DNA of 53,975 nt from Clostridia bacterium. GTDB taxonomy: Bacteria; Bacillota; Clostridia; Oscillospirales; CAG-382. Both the position numbers and the translations under genes were made by a program. Below, in pieces: positions 5,434-41,026 of the stretch (its first letter is position 1; every line of letters starts with the position of its first letter). The stretch covers positions 1-53,975 of the forward strand of contig JAFZDO010000031.1 of the NCBI GenBank assembly GCA_017561145.1, in the 5' to 3' direction. The notes under the pieces are model-generated. The model ran no database searches, was not told where the DNA came from, and worked only from the letters and a program-made list of their open reading frames with translations.

Positions 5434-6326
5434 GACTTGATTTGAATGTGGTTAACGAGGTAATCGTTCTCTTGCGAACTGTTATCACTGCCGCTAACGG
5501 TGTTCTGTGCTTTTTCAATGATGTACAAAACCTTGGAATTGATCTGAGTGAACATGCCGTTATAGTACAGTACATTTTGATCAATCCCGAAGTACATCCA
5601 GCCACAGCTGTCCATGGTCGCAAAACGGATACGCCCATCGAAATAGAAGGGTTCACGGTCGACGACACTATCATCAATCCAGCCTTTTCCGTCGTTGTAA
5701 ACCTGACGCAGCAGATCCATATCTCCGTCGGTCAGTCTTGTCCATTCCAACACGGTTGTATCGTAGGTATCTTCTTCCGTAAATTCGAGGGTAGGCTGGG
5801 GGAAAAATTGTATTTTCCCGTAATCCTCATCGCTTGTGCCAAAATGCAGTTCTTTATTATCTGCCACGGCCTTGCTTGAGATACGCTCACTGAAGAAAAG
5901 ATGCTCGTGATCAATACCACAGCCACCGTCTGCAATTTCGCCTTCCTCCGCTGAAACAGGAGGGTCAATGCTTTTAATTACTTCTACAACAAGACAAAGA
6001 TAGTCATTCGTAATTTGCAGAAAGAAATTGGAATGATTGCTATGTTGGGAAACGTCTTCGGTGATTTTGTTTTCTGCGACCTCAACTAAAGCATCGGTGA
6101 TATAAGGCACAAAGCGTACCTGTTCCTCATAGAGTTCTATTATTTCTTTGCTTTTTGGGAGCGTCAGTTTATAAGCGCCGTTTTCTTCGCTTAAACACTG
6201 CGCTAACTCGGGTTGTTCTCCCTCGTTACCCGAAGGATTCTTGGATGCCATACAGCCTGCGAGAATGAGCATCGACACAATAAGTATCGATACTACCGTT
6301 GTTAAAAATTTAAACTCCTTTTTCAC
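5361..6326 (-). CDS. Lipoprotein, shorter paralogous leader
   Basis: A 321-residue secreted lipoprotein with no recognised domain. The start is taken as the GTG at 6326, placed behind AGAAAGGAAGG; an in-frame GTG nine bases earlier is too close to that site. The leader KKEFKFLTTVVSILIVSMLILAGC is identical in protein sequence to that of the downstream lipoprotein because both lie in a duplicated DNA segment. The mature part is acidic, with aromatic-rich strands near the end (FYFDGRIRFATMDSCGWMYF). The last 24 residues (SGDKHTLYFKRNLRKEG...) are encoded by the repeat copy that also carries the next gene's ribosome binding site, so the two genes overlap by 17 bases. That tail may be a by-product of the duplication. 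It follows the histidine kinase gene. Confidence 0.75.
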   Translation of the reverse strand: MKKEFKFLTTVVSILIVSMLILAGCMASKNPSGNEGEQPELAQCLSEENGAYKLTLPKSKEIIELYEEQVRFVPYITDALVEVAENKITEDVSQHSNHSNFFLQITNDYLCLVVEVIKSIDPPVSAEEGEIADGGCGIDHEHLFFSERISSKAVADNKELHFGTSDEDYGKIQFFPQPTLEFTEEDTYDTTVLEWTRLTDGDMDLLRQVYNDGKGWIDDSVVDREPFYFDGRIRFATMDSCGWMYFGIDQNVLYYNGMFTQINSKVLYIIEKAQNTVSGSDNSSQENDYLVNHIQIKSGDKHTLYFKRNLRKEGVNSEKRI

Positions 6327-6382
6327 TGTTAACACCTTCCTTTCTAAGGTTACGTTTAAAGTATAAGGTGTGTTTGTCGCCG
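6249..6382. repeat. 134-bp direct repeat, copy 2
   Basis: Second copy of the leader segment, in the same orientation, holding the ribosome binding site and signal peptide of the shorter lipoprotein gene. It begins 13 bases after the histidine kinase stop. Confidence 0.95.
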
Positions 6383-6395
6383 ACTTTTATCCGAC

Positions 6396-7757
6396 TTATT
6401 GCCGAGTTGTAAAATCGATTACAACCTTCGTGCCTTTACCCAAAGCCGATTCGAAATTTATGGAAGCGTTATGGGAGTCGGCTATCTGCTTGCAAAGCGC
6501 AAGCCCCAGCCCTGCGCCGCCTTCTGCGCGCGAACGGGATTTGTCGGTGCGGTAAAAGGGCTCGGTTATGTGAAGCAGCTGTTCCTCGGTCATGCCTTTG
6601 CCGTTATCCTCGATAACAGCTTTTCCGTCACGGCAGGACAATGTGATTTTTCCGCCGTCCGTGCAGGCCTTTATCGCATTTTCCGTGAGGTTGTAAAAGA
6701 GCATTGAAAGCAACGTTTCGTTACCCGAAACGATGGTTTTTTCGGTATCCAAAATGATTTCTGCGTTAAAATCCTTTGCCTTGAATTGCAGCTTTTCGGA
6801 AACGTCATAAAATATTGATGCAATATCGGTTTCGTCCTTTTTTAATTCGTTTCCGCGAATGTACGCGCTGTCAAGCAAAATTTCGGAAATTTTTTGCAAT
6901 CTTTCGGATTCCGACATAATGTATTTAGCGGCGATGATCCGCTTTTCCTCGGTGGTTGCCGCCTTTTCCAAAAATTCGGCATAGCCGTGAATGCTCGTTA
7001 GCGGTGTGCGAAGCTCGTGCGCCATATTGTCAACAAGCATCTGCTTGCGCTTTGCGTCACGCTCAAGCGTTTCGAACTGCTCGTTTATCTTGTCAAGCAT
7101 CGCGTTGAAGCTTCTTGCGAGAAGCGTAAATTCATCACTGCCTTGCTCTGTTGCTCTTACCGAAAAATCGCCCGATTCGATGATCTCGGTCGTATTGCGA
7201 AGCCGCTCCAACGGGGTTGAAAGCTTTTTGAGGATGAAATAAAGGCAGACCGCCAGAATTATCGAAACCGCCAGCGCCGTGATAACGTAGGTTATCATGA
7301 GCGATTTGAATTCGTCATCGACCGACGAGACGTTTTTGCCGAAAACAAGCTCGTATTCGCCGTTGCATACCGAAGCCGAAATGATGATATGGCGGTCGCC
7401 GTTTATCTCGGTGTGCAAAAGCGAATCGGTCGGCGATTCGATGCTTTCGGTATAATTTTTATACAAGGTGCTTCCGTTTTTATTAAAGGAAAGCATTATA
7501 CCCTTGCTTTTGTAATGCGAGCCGAAGGTCTGCATCAAAAGCGTAGGACTTGCATTTTGGTTCATTTCCATCAGGTCGCTGTAATCTCGCTCGAATGACA
7601 TCGCAACGTAATATTGCTCTGCCGATGCGGTCGCTTCTGCCGATTGAACGTTTTTGCTGTGGGTATATACCGTCAGCGAAAGAACACCGATATTTATACA
7701 GAACAAAAACAGAATAAGCGTGAAGATATAGGTCTTCTGCCAAAATCTCATTTTCAT
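6396..7757 (-). CDS. Sensor histidine kinase
   Basis: A 453-residue membrane histidine kinase, partner of the response regulator gene it overlaps by four bases (ATGA). Order: membrane segment at about 11-30, an extracytoplasmic sensor of about 120 residues, second membrane segment at about 153-176, HAMP linker (LSTPLERLRNTTEIIESGDF), HisKA box MAHELRTPLTSIHGY with the phospho-accepting His at 247, then the HATPase domain with N box NLTENAIKA, G1 box DNGKGM and G2 box GGAGLGLALC. All key residues are present. The sensor domain has no recognised ligand fold. Two lipoprotein genes follow in the same direction and may feed or report to the signal; that is inference. Confidence 0.93.
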   Translation of the reverse strand: MKMRFWQKTYIFTLILFLFCINIGVLSLTVYTHSKNVQSAEATASAEQYYVAMSFERDYSDLMEMNQNASPTLLMQTFGSHYKSKGIMLSFNKNGSTLYKNYTESIESPTDSLLHTEINGDRHIIISASVCNGEYELVFGKNVSSVDDEFKSLMITYVITALAVSIILAVCLYFILKKLSTPLERLRNTTEIIESGDFSVRATEQGSDEFTLLARSFNAMLDKINEQFETLERDAKRKQMLVDNMAHELRTPLTSIHGYAEFLEKAATTEEKRIIAAKYIMSESERLQKISEILLDSAYIRGNELKKDETDIASIFYDVSEKLQFKAKDFNAEIILDTEKTIVSGNETLLSMLFYNLTENAIKACTDGGKITLSCRDGKAVIEDNGKGMTEEQLLHITEPFYRTDKSRSRAEGGAGLGLALCKQIADSHNASINFESALGKGTKVVIDFTTRQ

Positions 7758-34119: not shown

Positions 34120-34944
34120 ATGAACGGAAAGAACCGATGCAGGATCTTAAAGGATATTCGCAAAAAGATCGCTGAAGAAAACGATATTGAATATATCACC
34201 ACTGAATGTAAATACCAAGGCGACTGCCCCGGTACCTGCCCGAAATGTGAATCGGAGGTCAGATACTTGGAGCGCGAGCTTGAACGCAAAAGAGGTCTCG
34301 GCAAAAGGGTTGCGATCGCGGGCATCGCCGCCGGCGTGACCGCGACGGCTACGGGCTGTACGAGTGACGTTTTTTCGCTTTTTAATGGCGATACGCTCCA
34401 AGGCGAGACGGAATATCAAGGCGTTCCTGTTGCCGAATATTCGCAAAACGAAAACAGTATTAAAAACGAAAGCGGCGTTTCCGATGTATCTATGCAAGGC
34501 GATATTGTAATGGTAGACGGCGAAATGCCCGATACAATGGGAGTGGAACCCGAAATATCGGAAGAAGAAACGAAGACCGCAGGCATTTTACCGCCCGAAG
34601 ATTCTATGCCCGAAATAACCAACCCATATCCCGACATAATGGGTGATTATGCAGTTTTTTACCTTCCCATAGAGGATGCGGTAAATATGACCGAAGCCGA
34701 AATAATGAAGGAGCTTGTGAACTGGTCGCGTAAATATATCGATTACGGATGGCGCGAAAATATTACCTACCGTTATGCAAACTCGACTCTTTATATGACC
34801 GATGACGGCAGATATATCGAGGTGTTCTTTGACGAAGACGGCTTTTGCAAAAGCGTCAATGTTTTCGAGGAAGAGCTAATGGGCGAGGAAGAGCTAATGG
34901 GCGAGCCGAGTGTTGTAGAACCGCTTATGGGTGATATGCCGTAA
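34120..34944 (+). CDS. Cys4-motif protein with hydrophobic segment and Met-Gly repeats
   Basis: 274 residues, function unknown. Residues 1-62 form a charged domain with C30-x5-C36-x3-C40-x2-C43 (ECKYQGDCPGTCPKCESEV), a pattern suited to a metal or Fe-S cluster, followed by helix RYLERELERKR. Residues 63-79 are hydrophobic, ending ATATGC at 80, which could be a weak lipobox, so the rest may be exported. The remainder is acidic, with a folded-looking part at 180-250 and five Met-Gly motifs: PDTMGVE, PDIMGDY, EELMGEE, EELMGEP, EPLMGDM. The stop overlaps the radical SAM start by one base (TAATG). I believe similar Cys-motif proteins occur in gut Clostridia and Bacteroidota, but I know no function. 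AAGGAAAG is well placed before the ATG. A TATAAT lies at 34080-34085. Confidence 0.8.
   Translation: MNGKNRCRILKDIRKKIAEENDIEYITTECKYQGDCPGTCPKCESEVRYLERELERKRGLGKRVAIAGIAAGVTATATGCTSDVFSLFNGDTLQGETEYQGVPVAEYSQNENSIKNESGVSDVSMQGDIVMVDGEMPDTMGVEPEISEEETKTAGILPPEDSMPEITNPYPDIMGDYAVFYLPIEDAVNMTEAEIMKELVNWSRKYIDYGWRENITYRYANSTLYMTDDGRYIEVFFDEDGFCKSVNVFEEELMGEEELMGEPSVVEPLMGDMP
34867..34902 (+). repeat. 18-bp tandem duplication encoding EELMGE units
   Basis: The unit GAGGAAGAGCTAATGGGC is present twice head to tail without mismatch and encodes two EELMG segments near the C-terminus of the Cys4-motif protein. The identity at DNA level points to a recent duplication. Confidence 0.95.
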
Positions 34945-35567
34945 TGACAATGAATCAAGCACCGTTTATTGCAATATCGCGTCACAGAATACAAACCGAC
35001 GGGGAAGGGGTAACCACGCTTTGCGGCTTTTACGGATGTCCGTTAAGATGTAAATATTGCATCAACCCCCAATCCTTCCGCGATAATACGAAAAAGCTTC
35101 TTCACACGCCCGAATCGCTTTACAATGCGGTGAAGCTTGACGATATTTATTTTCTTGCCACAAACGGCGGAGTTACCTTCGGCGGAGGCGAGCCGCTTCT
35201 TTATGCCGATTTTCTCAAGGAATTTCGTTCTCTTTGCGGTGAAAAATGGCACCTTTGCGCCGAAACGAGCCTTAACGTAAACAGCGAAGCAGTCGAGCTT
35301 GCTTCTTCGGTCATCGATCATTTTTACGTCGATATCAAGGATATGAACGGCGAAATATATGAAAGCTACACGGGTAAAAGCAACGACAGGGTTATCGAAA
35401 ACCTTAAATTGCTACTGTCCTTGACCTCTCCCGACCGAATAACCGTTAGAATTCCGCTTATAAAGGATTTCAACACCGAATCCGACCGTCAAAAAAGCGT
35501 TGAGACGCTTAAAGAAATGGGATTTACCAAATTCGATCTTTTTAACTATATTATCAAGAGGAAATAA
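34944..35567 (+). CDS. Radical SAM protein, PFL-activase-like
   Basis: A 207-residue cytoplasmic radical S-adenosylmethionine enzyme. The [4Fe-4S]/SAM site is CGFYGCPLRCKYC, whose last three Cys form the CxxxCxxC motif. TDGEGVTTLCGFYG corresponds to the DGPGIRT segment of glycyl-radical-enzyme activases, GGVTFGGGEPL is the SAM-binding GGEP motif, and PLIKDFN matches the activase PLIPGFN. It is shorter than typical activases (about 250-300), with no ferredoxin insert and no SPASM or B12 domain. No glycyl radical enzyme is encoded in the window. One-base overlaps with both neighbours suggest coupled translation and a partner or substrate next door. Confidence 0.88.
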   Translation: MTMNQAPFIAISRHRIQTDGEGVTTLCGFYGCPLRCKYCINPQSFRDNTKKLLHTPESLYNAVKLDDIYFLATNGGVTFGGGEPLLYADFLKEFRSLCGEKWHLCAETSLNVNSEAVELASSVIDHFYVDIKDMNGEIYESYTGKSNDRVIENLKLLLSLTSPDRITVRIPLIKDFNTESDRQKSVETLKEMGFTKFDLFNYIIKRK

Positions 35568-36208
35568 TGTATAATTATATTCTGTTCGACCTCGACGGAA
35601 CGTTGACCGATCCCGGACGCGGCATTACCAATTCGGTTGCCTATGCGCTTAACAAATTCGGTATCGACGTTGCCGATAAAACAGAGCTTTATAAATTTAT
35701 CGGTCCGCCCTTGACCGATTCGTTCGAGAAATATTATGGCTTTTCGAGCGACGAAGCAATCATCGCCGTTGAATACTACCGCGAATATTTTAAGCCCAAG
35801 GGAATTTACGAAAACGAGATATATCAAGGCGTGCCCGAGCTTCTTAAGGCATTGAAGGAAAACGGAAAAACCGTTATCCTTGCTACAAGCAAGCCCGAAA
35901 TCTTTGCAATCGAAATACTTAAATATTTTAAGCTCGACAGCTATTTCGATTTTGTTGCAGGAGCAACGCTCGATAAATCGAGAACAAAAAAGGGCGACGT
36001 TATCGCTTATGCGCTCAACAGCTGTAATATCACCGACAAAAGTGACTGCCTTATGGTCGGCGACAGAGAGCAGGATATCAGGGGTGCGATAGCAAACGGA
36101 ATCGATTCGCTTGGTGTCCTTTACGGCTACGGCGATATTGCCGAGCTATCAAACGCAAAAAGCACCTATATCGCCAAAACGGTTGAAGATATTATTAAGT
36201 ATGTGTAA
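35567..36208 (+). CDS. HAD phosphatase, phosphoglycolate phosphatase-like
   Basis: A 213-residue HAD hydrolase of the Gph/PpaX group. Motif I is ILFDLDGTLTDPG, motif II the Thr/Ser of ILATSKPE, motif III a Lys in the SRTKKGDVI region and motif IV CLMVGDREQDIRGA. An alpha-helical cap lies at about 18-90. The start overlaps the radical SAM stop (TAATG), so it is the third gene of this coupled set. Substrates could be phosphoglycolate, pyrophosphate or 5'-nucleotides. A repair or detoxification role for the preceding enzyme is conceivable but unsupported. Confidence 0.88.
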   Translation: MYNYILFDLDGTLTDPGRGITNSVAYALNKFGIDVADKTELYKFIGPPLTDSFEKYYGFSSDEAIIAVEYYREYFKPKGIYENEIYQGVPELLKALKENGKTVILATSKPEIFAIEILKYFKLDSYFDFVAGATLDKSRTKKGDVIAYALNSCNITDKSDCLMVGDREQDIRGAIANGIDSLGVLYGYGDIAELSNAKSTYIAKTVEDIIKYV

Positions 36209-39080: not shown

Positions 39081-40190
39081 TTATATTGTTTTACAAAAGC
39101 TTTCGACCGTTTTTGCGATATAACCGATCTCTTCTTCGGTGTTCTCGTGCGAGAGCGAAAAGCGCATGGAGGATAATGCATCCTCGTCGCTGATGCCCAA
39201 GGCTTTTAAAACACGGCTCGGTGCTTTGTCGTTCGAATTACAAGCCGCGCCGGTTGAAGCGCAAATACCCTTACCGTCAAGGTGCAAAAGCATTGCCTCG
39301 GCGCTTATTCCTTTAAACGTGACGTTGATTATGCCGTCACTTCGGTTACCGCCGTTAAGGATAACGTTTTGAAGCTTTAAAAGTCTGTCGGACAGACTTT
39401 TTGAAAGCTTTGACACGTATTCCTTTCGTTCGTCAAGGTGCGTGCAAGCGTCCTTTAACGCGGCAGAGAGTGAAGCGATGCCGATTAAATTTTCGGTACC
39501 TGCGCGGAGCTTATTTTCTTGAGCGCCCCCGAAGATTAACGGTCTTGCACTTATATCTTCGCGGATATAAAGCGCGCCGACACCCTGCATACCGCCGAAT
39601 TTATGCGCCGAAAGCGAGAGCATACCTACGTTCATTTTATTAACGTCGATATTTAAATGTCCGATTGCCGCAACCGCATCGGTATGGAAGATAACGCCCT
39701 TTTCCTTACAAAGCGCGCCGATCTCCTTGAGCGGTTGGACAGTACCGATCTCGTTATTGACCGCCATAATGCTTACGATCGCGGTATCGTTATTGATAAG
39801 CGATTTCAGCTCGTCAAGGTTAACAATTCCGTTTTTATCAACGCCGACGGTTTTGATTTCAAAGCCGTGATTTTCCAAATTAAACGCGGTGTTGAAGACC
39901 GAGCTATGCTCGATGCTTGAAATTATTATCCGTTTCTTGCCCGTAAGCGATGCTATATGAAGCGCTTGATTGTTTGCCTCGCTACCGCCCGACGTGAAAA
40001 TGAGATTATCGTTTTCGCTTGCGCCGATAAGCTCTTTTACCGTCTTGCGCGCGGCTCTTATTTTTTGCGATGCGATAATCCCCATATGGTGCGAGCTTGA
40101 GGCGTTACCGCAAAAATCAAGCAGGTCGGTTATTTCTTTCTTTGCCGCTTGGCAAATTTTTGTCGTTGCGGCGTTGTCGACGTATATCAT
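39081..40190 (-). CDS. Cysteine desulfurase (NifS/IscS family)
   Basis: A 369-residue PLP enzyme that takes sulfur from cysteine to form a persulfide for Fe-S cluster or thiolation pathways. MIYVDNAATT is the family start, the PLP Lys197 lies in SLSAHKFGG, and the catalytic loop Cys is C317 in ASTGAACNS. GGAQENKLRAGTEN is a classic motif. There is no iscU/sufU neighbour; instead it follows the pyridoxal kinase and cysteine synthase genes, overlapping the kinase stop by one base. Last gene of the operon. Confidence 0.93.
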   Translation of the reverse strand: MIYVDNAATTKICQAAKKEITDLLDFCGNASSSHHMGIIASQKIRAARKTVKELIGASENDNLIFTSGGSEANNQALHIASLTGKKRIIISSIEHSSVFNTAFNLENHGFEIKTVGVDKNGIVNLDELKSLINNDTAIVSIMAVNNEIGTVQPLKEIGALCKEKGVIFHTDAVAAIGHLNIDVNKMNVGMLSLSAHKFGGMQGVGALYIREDISARPLIFGGAQENKLRAGTENLIGIASLSAALKDACTHLDERKEYVSKLSKSLSDRLLKLQNVILNGGNRSDGIINVTFKGISAEAMLLHLDGKGICASTGAACNSNDKAPSRVLKALGISDEDALSSMRFSLSHENTEEEIGYIAKTVESFCKTI

Positions 40191-41026
40191 TATTTGTTGA
40201 GCAATTCGATAAGATAGGGAATCGCAGTTTCAAACTTTGCGCCGTATTTATGGTTTTCGTCGCCTATTGAATTTTCGATGCAGCGCAAGGTGTAATCTGC
40301 CGCGATGCGTGCCGATTCATATTCATCGTTACCGCGAAGAAGCGCACCCGAAAAAGCACTTGCAAAAACGTCGCCCGTGCCGTGTGTGCCTTGCTTGAAG
40401 CGGCGGTGAGTGTAATGCTTGATGCTGTCACCGATCTTTATAACGACACCCGTCGTATCCTCGTCATAGCCGATGCCGGTAAGCACGACATTCTTCATAC
40501 CGTCCTTGTCGAGCGCTTCAAGAATGCTCATAACGTATGCTTCGTCATAATTTTCCTTATATTCAATGCCGGTGATAAAGCAAGCTTCGGTTATGTTGGG
40601 GATAACGATGTCCGCATTGCGGCAAAGACGCGCCATTTCGCTTGCATAAACCTCGTCAAAGCCGTAATAAAGCTTGCCGTTGTCAGCCATTGCGGGATCA
40701 ACGATCTTAATGCACTTCTTTTTCGCGGAGAAGGTGTTAAAAATATCCGTTACCATATCGATCTGCTTAACAGAACCGAGATAACCTGTGTAGATAGCAT
40801 CGAAATCGATGCCTTCCTTTTGCCAGTGCTCCGAAATTTTGGGAATATCGTCCGAAAGGTCGCGGAAGGTAAAGCCGGTAAATCCGCCCGTGTGGGTAGA
40901 AAGCACCGCCGAGGGGAGAATGACCGTTTCAACACCGCAAGCCGAAAGAATGGGCAACGCTACGGTAAGCGAGCATTGACCAAAGCAGGAAATGTCTTGG
41001 ATGGTTAAAATTCTTTTGTAGTCCAT
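40190..41026 (-). CDS. pdxK: Pyridoxal/pyridoxamine kinase
   Basis: A 278-residue ribokinase-fold kinase that phosphorylates pyridoxal, pyridoxine or pyridoxamine. The start MDYKRILTIQDISCFGQCSL, the substrate loop VLSTHTGGFTG and the catalytic GTHGTGDVFASAFSG with the Asp base support this; NITEACFITG is also typical of the PdxK/PdxY group. It sits between two PLP-dependent enzymes (cysK and the desulfurase), a plausible supply link. The distinction between PdxK and PdxY is not certain. Confidence 0.88.
   Translation of the reverse strand: MDYKRILTIQDISCFGQCSLTVALPILSACGVETVILPSAVLSTHTGGFTGFTFRDLSDDIPKISEHWQKEGIDFDAIYTGYLGSVKQIDMVTDIFNTFSAKKKCIKIVDPAMADNGKLYYGFDEVYASEMARLCRNADIVIPNITEACFITGIEYKENYDEAYVMSILEALDKDGMKNVVLTGIGYDEDTTGVVIKIGDSIKHYTHRRFKQGTHGTGDVFASAFSGALLRGNDEYESARIAADYTLRCIENSIGDENHKYGAKFETAIPYLIELLNK

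Follow-up and report, generated by a model that had tools for sequence, protein, structure and literature searches.

Organization of the locus

The DNA stretch analysed (the window) comprises 53,975 nucleotides, i.e., positions 1 to 53,975 of contig JAFZDO010000031.1 in GenBank assembly GCA_017561145.1, and originates from a Clostridia bacterium (GTDB lineage Bacillota; Clostridia; Oscillospirales; CAG-382). The genes under study are three open reading frames (ORFs) on its plus strand at positions 34120-34944 (274 amino acids, aa), 34944-35567 (207 aa) and 35567-36208 (213 aa). They encode a lipoprotein-like protein with a five-cysteine domain (Cys5), a short radical S-adenosylmethionine (SAM) enzyme and a HAD-family phosphatase. 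Each start overlaps the preceding stop codon by one base, and TAATG is present at both junctions, as already described in an initial annotation of the stretch.

The 274-aa protein, the proposed substrate of the radical SAM enzyme, consists of three parts. The Cys5 domain (residues 1-61; positions 34120-34302) is followed by a signal-peptide-like hydrophobic segment with a lipobox-like ATG-C end (positions 34303-34359; codon of C80 at 34357-34359) and by an acidic tail with repeated Phi-x-G-[DE]-Phi motifs, Phi being a hydrophobic residue (positions 34360-34941). No known family was matched by this protein in Pfam and curated family searches.

Conservation of the gene pair

Genome contigs were scanned with the first 83 residues of the Cys5 protein, resulting in at least 45 Cys5 loci in Bacillota and Bacteroidota, several of which were cut by contig ends. 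Among the matches listed, all 17 Bacillota loci had the radical SAM gene directly downstream of the Cys5 gene. Of the 28 Bacteroidota loci listed, 10 contained it, in 9 cases upstream. Seventeen Bacteroidota genomes without the radical SAM gene at the Cys5 locus were searched completely; 13 carry it elsewhere (at least 196 bits), three gave no match at all, and one gave only an activase match of 78 bits. Locus L035, apparently from the same assembly as L034, was left out of this search.

In the organism's own class, the Cys5 profile was detected in 12 of 391 genomes, and the radical SAM profile was detected in exactly the same 12 (176.9-338.7 bits). Any match to the latter at 1e-30 was found in 77 genomes; the other 65 are activases scoring at most 130.5 bits. 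The 12 genomes with the pair span 8 of 223 genera, and both genes were adjacent in seven of seven further members of the usual architecture from this class. Among 295 genomes of Bacteroidia, both profiles were found in the same two. Among 149 genomes of the family Muribaculaceae, Cys5 was detected in 45, the radical SAM enzyme (at least 233 bits, which omits one match of 116.8 bits) in 43, and both in 42. The exceptions were Cys5 alone in G765, G817 and G857 and the radical SAM enzyme alone in G764; the locus of G765 (L111) has a short piece of the radical SAM gene. Since the centre genomes G000, G002 and G009 had contributed rows to one or both profiles, the blind shared counts are 11, 1 and 41, respectively. 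Pairing of the Cys5 protein with the short radical SAM enzyme is conserved in both Clostridia and Bacteroidales; a cultured commensal with the pair is Bacteroides faecalis (L019). The initial annotation had proposed the Cys protein as partner or substrate of the enzyme and had tied this idea to the genes being neighbours in related genomes; the strict adjacency in the listed Bacillota loci and the near-perfect co-occurrence support it on the genomic side.

One plasmid record carries the pair (L002, Segatella copri, NZ_CP137558.1); here, the radical SAM gene is preceded by two Cys5 genes whose products carry the annotation energy transducer TonB. In this plasmid of 93 kb, which was typed as non-mobilizable, the pair is located beside annotated relaxase and MobC genes, and this location hints at horizontal spread. 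A search for phage carriage yielded 18 pattern matches in viral_contigs, none of which was confirmed. Two matches to the radical SAM family in Bacteroides (G005:C61:189236 and G006:C106:12671) contain one TAA each, and represent either degraded copies or frame ends. In L008 (positions 6001-6504), the Cys5 gene is broken by an in-frame stop codon in the Cys motif region while the radical SAM gene is intact, indicating a pseudogene or a sequencing error in the metagenome-assembled genome.

Cys5 domain

A C-x5-C-x3-C-x2-C motif had been reported as a four-cysteine domain. The motif is present (C30, C36, C40 and C43), but the count was too low, as C7 is a fifth cysteine that is invariant in 21 of 21 alignment rows together with the other four. 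G34 and G38 are invariant in the same rows. In an AlphaFold2 model based on 22 rows, helices at residues 3-20 and 41-59 flank the Cys loop, and C7 is placed on helix 1 and C43 near the start of helix 2. The mean predicted local distance difference test (pLDDT) score of this model was 74.6 and its predicted template modelling score 0.57; most of the signal-peptide part had a pLDDT below 50.

Comparison to known families yielded weak scores only. In Pfam, PF08274 was matched by 12 of 21 rows with a best E-value of 0.0023 (window row, 14.9 versus 30.8 bits); the best E-values were 0.0031 in NCBIfam and 0.65 in a sequence search of the PDB. No curated match beyond such scores assigned the domain to the zinc ribbons or ferredoxins. 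Among 16 Bacillota proteins, the median identity of the Cys5 domain was 0.69, versus 0.29 for the tails.

Hydrophobic segment and protein architecture

The segment following the Cys5 domain had been described as hydrophobic and weakly lipobox-like, which agrees with the ATG-C end of the window protein. Among 113 homologues, with related rows kept, the segment ended with a lipobox-like Cys in 84, with an AxA pattern as for signal peptidase I in 23, and with neither in 6; both patterns were defined loosely. The occurrence of two cleavage-site types at the same place favours a signal peptide over a mere membrane anchor. Bacterial lipoproteins have a short, positively charged n-region. Unlike these, the Cys5 proteins possess a domain of approximately 60 residues in front of the hydrophobic segment.

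The proteins are 119-346 aa long (two pieces from L008 left out). In Bacteroidota, the part behind the segment contained TonB_C, CarboxypepD_reg-like or BACON domains in seven of seven scanned proteins, with one under the cut-off; other Cys5 proteins have short acidic tails.

Tail motif

The window tail (194 aa) contains 44 Asp plus Glu and 9 Lys plus Arg residues as well as five Met-Gly dipeptides, so that the acidic tail with five Met-Gly motifs of the initial annotation was recovered by counting. Five or more Met-Gly were reached by 21 of 20,000 shuffles of this tail. The repeat recurs in the tails of relatives, but its restriction to Met was abandoned: window-like Clostridia frequently have M in front of Gly, and E, Q, V, L or A are frequent at this place elsewhere. 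The tails differ from each other, yet have Phi-x-G-[DE]-Phi in common, with M, E, Q, L, A, V or other residues before Gly and often Pro after the motif.

For counting, the form [LMIVY][EMQDR]G[DE][VIMPL] was set after viewing a first set of 55 tails and then tested on 56 others. Omitted from the counts were L008 (broken gene), L071 (a copy of L014), two tails of at most 20 aa, and L067-L070 (other architecture). The first 55 tails contained 54 occurrences in 30 tails versus 2.8 expected. In the further Clostridia tails, 11 matches were distributed over eight of eight tails, versus 0.4 (maximum 3) in composition-keeping shuffles. The further Bacteroidia tails gave 22 matches in 20 of 48 tails versus 2.5 (maximum 8), and after reduction of this set to 30 tails among themselves, 13 matches versus 1.3 (maximum 5). 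Motif density per 1000 aa was 17 in Clostridia tails, 2.6 in Bacteroidia tails, and 0.24 in 379 neighbour ORFs, which include the radical SAM enzymes. In the window tail, the glycine codons of the four motifs of this form are located at positions 34498-34500, 34519-34521, 34900-34902 and 34930-34932.

A scan of 27 Clostridia tails without a preset motif retrieved Phi.G.Phi in 26 tails (8.9 expected), Phi.G[DE] in 25 (10.2 expected) and G.Phi.P in 17 (4.2 expected). Two other patterns reached a slightly higher z, but each was restricted to four tails.

Radical SAM enzyme

The 207-aa product (positions 34944-35567) matched Radical_SAM of Pfam (1.1e-19) and lacks a ferredoxin insert. A second ATG at position 34950, which is level with the ORF starts in L002, L004 and L014, may be the start of the gene. 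The initial annotation had called the enzyme activase-like. Its closest families are indeed the activases of glycyl radical enzymes (GREs), but the scores were below every listed activase cut-off (TIGR02494, 130 versus 174 bits; TIGR02493, 90 versus 232 bits). TIGR02494 was matched by 26 of 26 members of the radical SAM family. In an alignment of the family, the CxxxCxxC motif (C32, C36 and C39) is invariant in 26 of 26 rows, and so are D19 and N41. The nearest solved structure by sequence is the pyruvate formate-lyase (PFL)-activating enzyme 3c8f (2.1e-27), in which D19 and N41 align with Asp16 and Asn38. According to the excerpted text of PMC9326890, simulations show these two residues holding the glycine of the substrate and another residue close to it. 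The other activase of the organism's own genome has the same Asp and Asn, so that both residues mark the whole activase family. Ferredoxin-type motifs are present in that activase and absent from the Cys5-linked enzymes.

No GRE is encoded in the window, in agreement with the initial annotation. The genome (68% complete) has one GRE by Pfam Gly_radical on another contig (L137:2448-5502, contig C14), with RVSGW at the likely radical site and with its own 298-aa activase, which carries ferredoxin-type Cys motifs and overlaps its end. A search for the motif R-[VIL]-[ASCT]-G-[YFW] in 57 Cys5 loci detected L137 as control and gave four matches, none of which was GRE-like by eye. In an unrooted tree of 70 radical SAM sequences, one branch (support 100/97) separated the 51 Cys5-linked enzymes from 19 further activases of the own class; activases were included only from fetched loci, and two rows were poorly filled.

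Fusions and variant architectures

The most telling observation of the analysis is the fusion of the Cys5 domain to the enzyme. In G028 and G135 (L067 and L069), the Cys5 domain forms the C-terminus of the radical SAM enzyme (306 and 315 aa), and a separate small gene directly after each fusion encodes a product resembling a canonical lipoprotein without Cys5, with SLMGIPTTP or VVGMMIAP in its tail. Cys5 can thus be located on the enzyme or on the proposed substrate, while the lipoprotein tail stays. In a second variant (G037 and G072; L068:4228-5229 and L070:4139-5182), Cys5 ends a protein of 333-347 aa with a stretch TLGLIADP or TLGVLVDGP before the domain, and the radical SAM gene overlaps downstream; a Pfam scan of the L068 protein, the only one of the two scanned, gave no match. 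Each variant is represented by two genomes, and the motif likeness in these four was judged by eye. Both the fused and the C-terminal Cys5 domains retain G38-T39-C40.

Neighbouring genes

The third ORF (positions 35567-36208) encodes a phosphoglycolate phosphatase-like member of the HAD family (PF13419, 4.8e-31). Its earlier inclusion in a coupled module had to be dropped, as it adjoins the pair only in the window and in 3 of 17 Bacillota relatives among the matches listed. The gene is a local passenger despite the overlap of start and stop. All-against-all comparison of 749 neighbour ORFs of at least 70 aa (longest non-overlapping ORFs; smaller genes left out) revealed no third partner, as other clusters reached at most 8 of 56 loci; the Cys5 and radical SAM families merged into one cluster via the fusion proteins. 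Elsewhere in the window, on the minus strand at positions 39081-41026, two genes identified by eye, one cysteine-desulfurase-like and one pyridoxal-kinase-like, adjoin each other end to start.

Comparison with known systems

Searches of open-licence PMC papers showed no description of the pair. The enzyme shares the radical SAM core, DGxG and the glycine-peptide anchors with the PFL-activating enzyme and other GRE activases (3c8f/3cb8, TIGR02493, TIGR02494). In contrast to these, the Cys5-linked enzymes are tied to Cys5 proteins, with no GRE found beside them, lack the Arg of DGxGxR outside the fusion pair, and are represented in the window by a protein below the listed cut-offs.

Ranthipeptides and epipeptides likewise have the radical SAM gene beside the substrate genes, with leader-type recognition of the kind proposed for Cys5. 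The anaerobic sulfatase-maturing enzyme is a cytosolic radical SAM enzyme modifying export-bound proteins at a short motif; it differs from the Cys5 system in being of the SPASM type, in converting Cys or Ser to formylglycine, and in working without a leader domain. Precursors of ribosomally synthesized and post-translationally modified peptides (RiPPs) are short, about 100 aa or less. As in RiPP systems, the enzyme is encoded and co-occurs with the candidate precursors, which are too long for typical members at 119-346 aa.

Among radical SAM-modified RiPPs of Bacteroidales, 7 of 9 selected clusters include a transporter, and the enzyme detailed in the excerpted text of PMC10352776 has a SPASM domain. 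The Cys5 system is like those described there in the radical SAM gene adjoining the putative substrate genes and in its proposed leader-type recognition; unlike them, it has neither SPASM nor a conserved transporter neighbour, and its putative precursors measure 119-346 aa. The excerpts of PMC12452194 describe bufferins and oxazolins as MNIO-modified RiPPs with Sec signal peptides on the precursors, highly unusual for RiPPs, with a partner protein encoded together with the enzyme and with approximately 16% of Buf2 predicted to be lipoproteins. The likeness concerns the route, with a signal peptide or signal-peptide-like segment on the precursor, and the partner protein encoded together with the enzyme. 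Bufferins and oxazolins differ in the enzyme class (non-haem iron) and in their Cys chemistry in the core, and those excerpts make no mention of a Cys5 domain before the signal peptide. By analogy, the Cys5 system resembles GRE activation in its enzyme and bufferins in its route, yet departs from both kinds in tested features. Since no GRE was found beside it, its scores are below the activase cut-offs, and its precursors exceed typical RiPPs in length, it appears as a variant and not as a plain member of either.

Proposed function and alternative explanations

With modest confidence, we read the pair from its sequence features as a protein-modification system for exported proteins, in which Cys5 would be the recognition module and the motif glycines the likely sites. 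The cytosolic radical SAM enzyme would recognise its precursors through the N-terminal Cys5, which is probably metal-binding and may provide an auxiliary metal site. Hydrogen would be abstracted most likely from the alpha-carbon of glycine in the Phi-x-G-[DE]-Phi tail motifs, and a backbone modification would be left on the tail. The precursor would then leave by the general export route, and cleavage after the hydrophobic segment by signal peptidase II (lipoprotein) or I (secreted protein) would remove Cys5. The modified tail, which may include a folded domain (e.g., TonB_C), would be the only part to reach the outside.

A role of Cys5 in recognition fits best because one or two enzymes face several Cys5 proteins, because the domain is expected to be lost with the signal peptide, and because it can be swapped onto the enzyme. 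In Muribaculaceae, a genome has one or two radical SAM genes against as many as six Cys5 genes, as for a common tag on several substrates. The 'recognition leader' considered in the initial annotation is consistent with the position of Cys5 before a signal-peptide-like segment and its transfer to the enzyme in two genomes.

Several observations weigh against this interpretation. D19 and N41 are common to ordinary activases and are alone no proof of glycine chemistry. GRE activases carry a DGxGxR signature, the Arg of which is missing across the Cys5-linked family (including L060-L066, L068 and L070) and is present only in the fusion pair L067/L069; at the midpoint root of the tree, these two fusion enzymes fall on the side of the activases. 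Cys5 occurs without the radical SAM family in 3 of 149 Muribaculaceae genomes and in 4 of 21 genomes, perhaps owing to incompleteness. The proteins of G037 and G072, in which Cys5 is C-terminal, have no evident signal peptide, so that export is not universal. Bacteroidia show the tail motif less strongly, and many Bacteroidota tails are without it. Its prespecified form was found in 15 of 38 Bacteroidia tails of the first set and in 20 of 48 further ones, some of which are kin of one another or of first-set tails (L107 and L030 come from a single genome), so that the further tails are not fully independent.

Two alternatives are unlikely. Cys5 could be an accessory subunit of the enzyme, contributing an auxiliary iron-sulfur cluster or electron delivery in place of the ferredoxin insert of larger GRE activases, with something else as the real substrate. 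The five invariant cysteines, the C-terminal fusions in two genomes, and the absence of the ferredoxin-type motifs seen in the genome's other activase would suit such a subunit. It is harder to reconcile with the excess of Cys5 proteins over enzymes per genome and with the signal-peptide-like segment of nearly all Cys5 proteins, which should remove or tether the domain; a common tail motif is needless for this role, and no other neighbour family was found in more than 8 of 56 loci (ORFs of at least 70 aa). We give a similarly low weight to the tail motif arising as a side effect of disordered lipoprotein linkers that are acidic and rich in proline, instead of being an enzyme site. The tails are strongly acidic and the motif is degenerate and missing from many Bacteroidota tails, but shuffles that keep the composition gave 0.4 (Clostridia) and 2.5 (Bacteroidia) matches on average against the 11 and 22 counted in the further tails.

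It is quite improbable that Cys5 itself is modified, e.g., at G34, G38 or a Cys, and that the exported tail is mere cargo. These residues are invariant in 21 of 21 rows and G38-T39-C40 persists in the fused and C-terminal versions; however, invariant glycines can be structural, export would throw away the modified part, and the recurrent glycine motif of the tails would be left unexplained. An ordinary activase of a GRE encoded elsewhere, with Cys5 proteins as regulators or coincidental partners, is very improbable: despite the activase families as nearest relatives (TIGR02494 in all 26 members) and the conserved glycine-peptide anchors, no GRE was recognised by motif in the 57 loci, the genome's GRE has its own activase, the Cys5-linked enzymes are separated from other activases with high support, and presence of the enzyme tracks Cys5.

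Implications

The conserved pair across two phyla suggests a hitherto undescribed route by which exported proteins are chemically modified, with an unusual arrangement in which a Cys-rich domain is the front end of a signal peptide, and it offers a clear, testable pairing of enzyme and substrate. A more specific version of the modification system is possible but tentative. In this version, an enzyme of the GRE-activase type would put radicals on several glycines of exported lipoproteins that are not enzymes, guided by a metal-binding Cys5 domain that is later cut off by signal peptidase. If true, anaerobic gut bacteria of different phyla would have glycine backbone chemistry in common on their outer surface, i.e., a lasting radical, cleavage, crosslink or hydroxylation.

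If the proposed modification system is real, the GRE-activase fold would have a second job beyond enzyme activation. Gut Bacteroidales and Clostridia would then possess a set of exported proteins with a backbone modification, numbering as many as six per genome in Muribaculaceae and including at least two annotated as energy transducer TonB.

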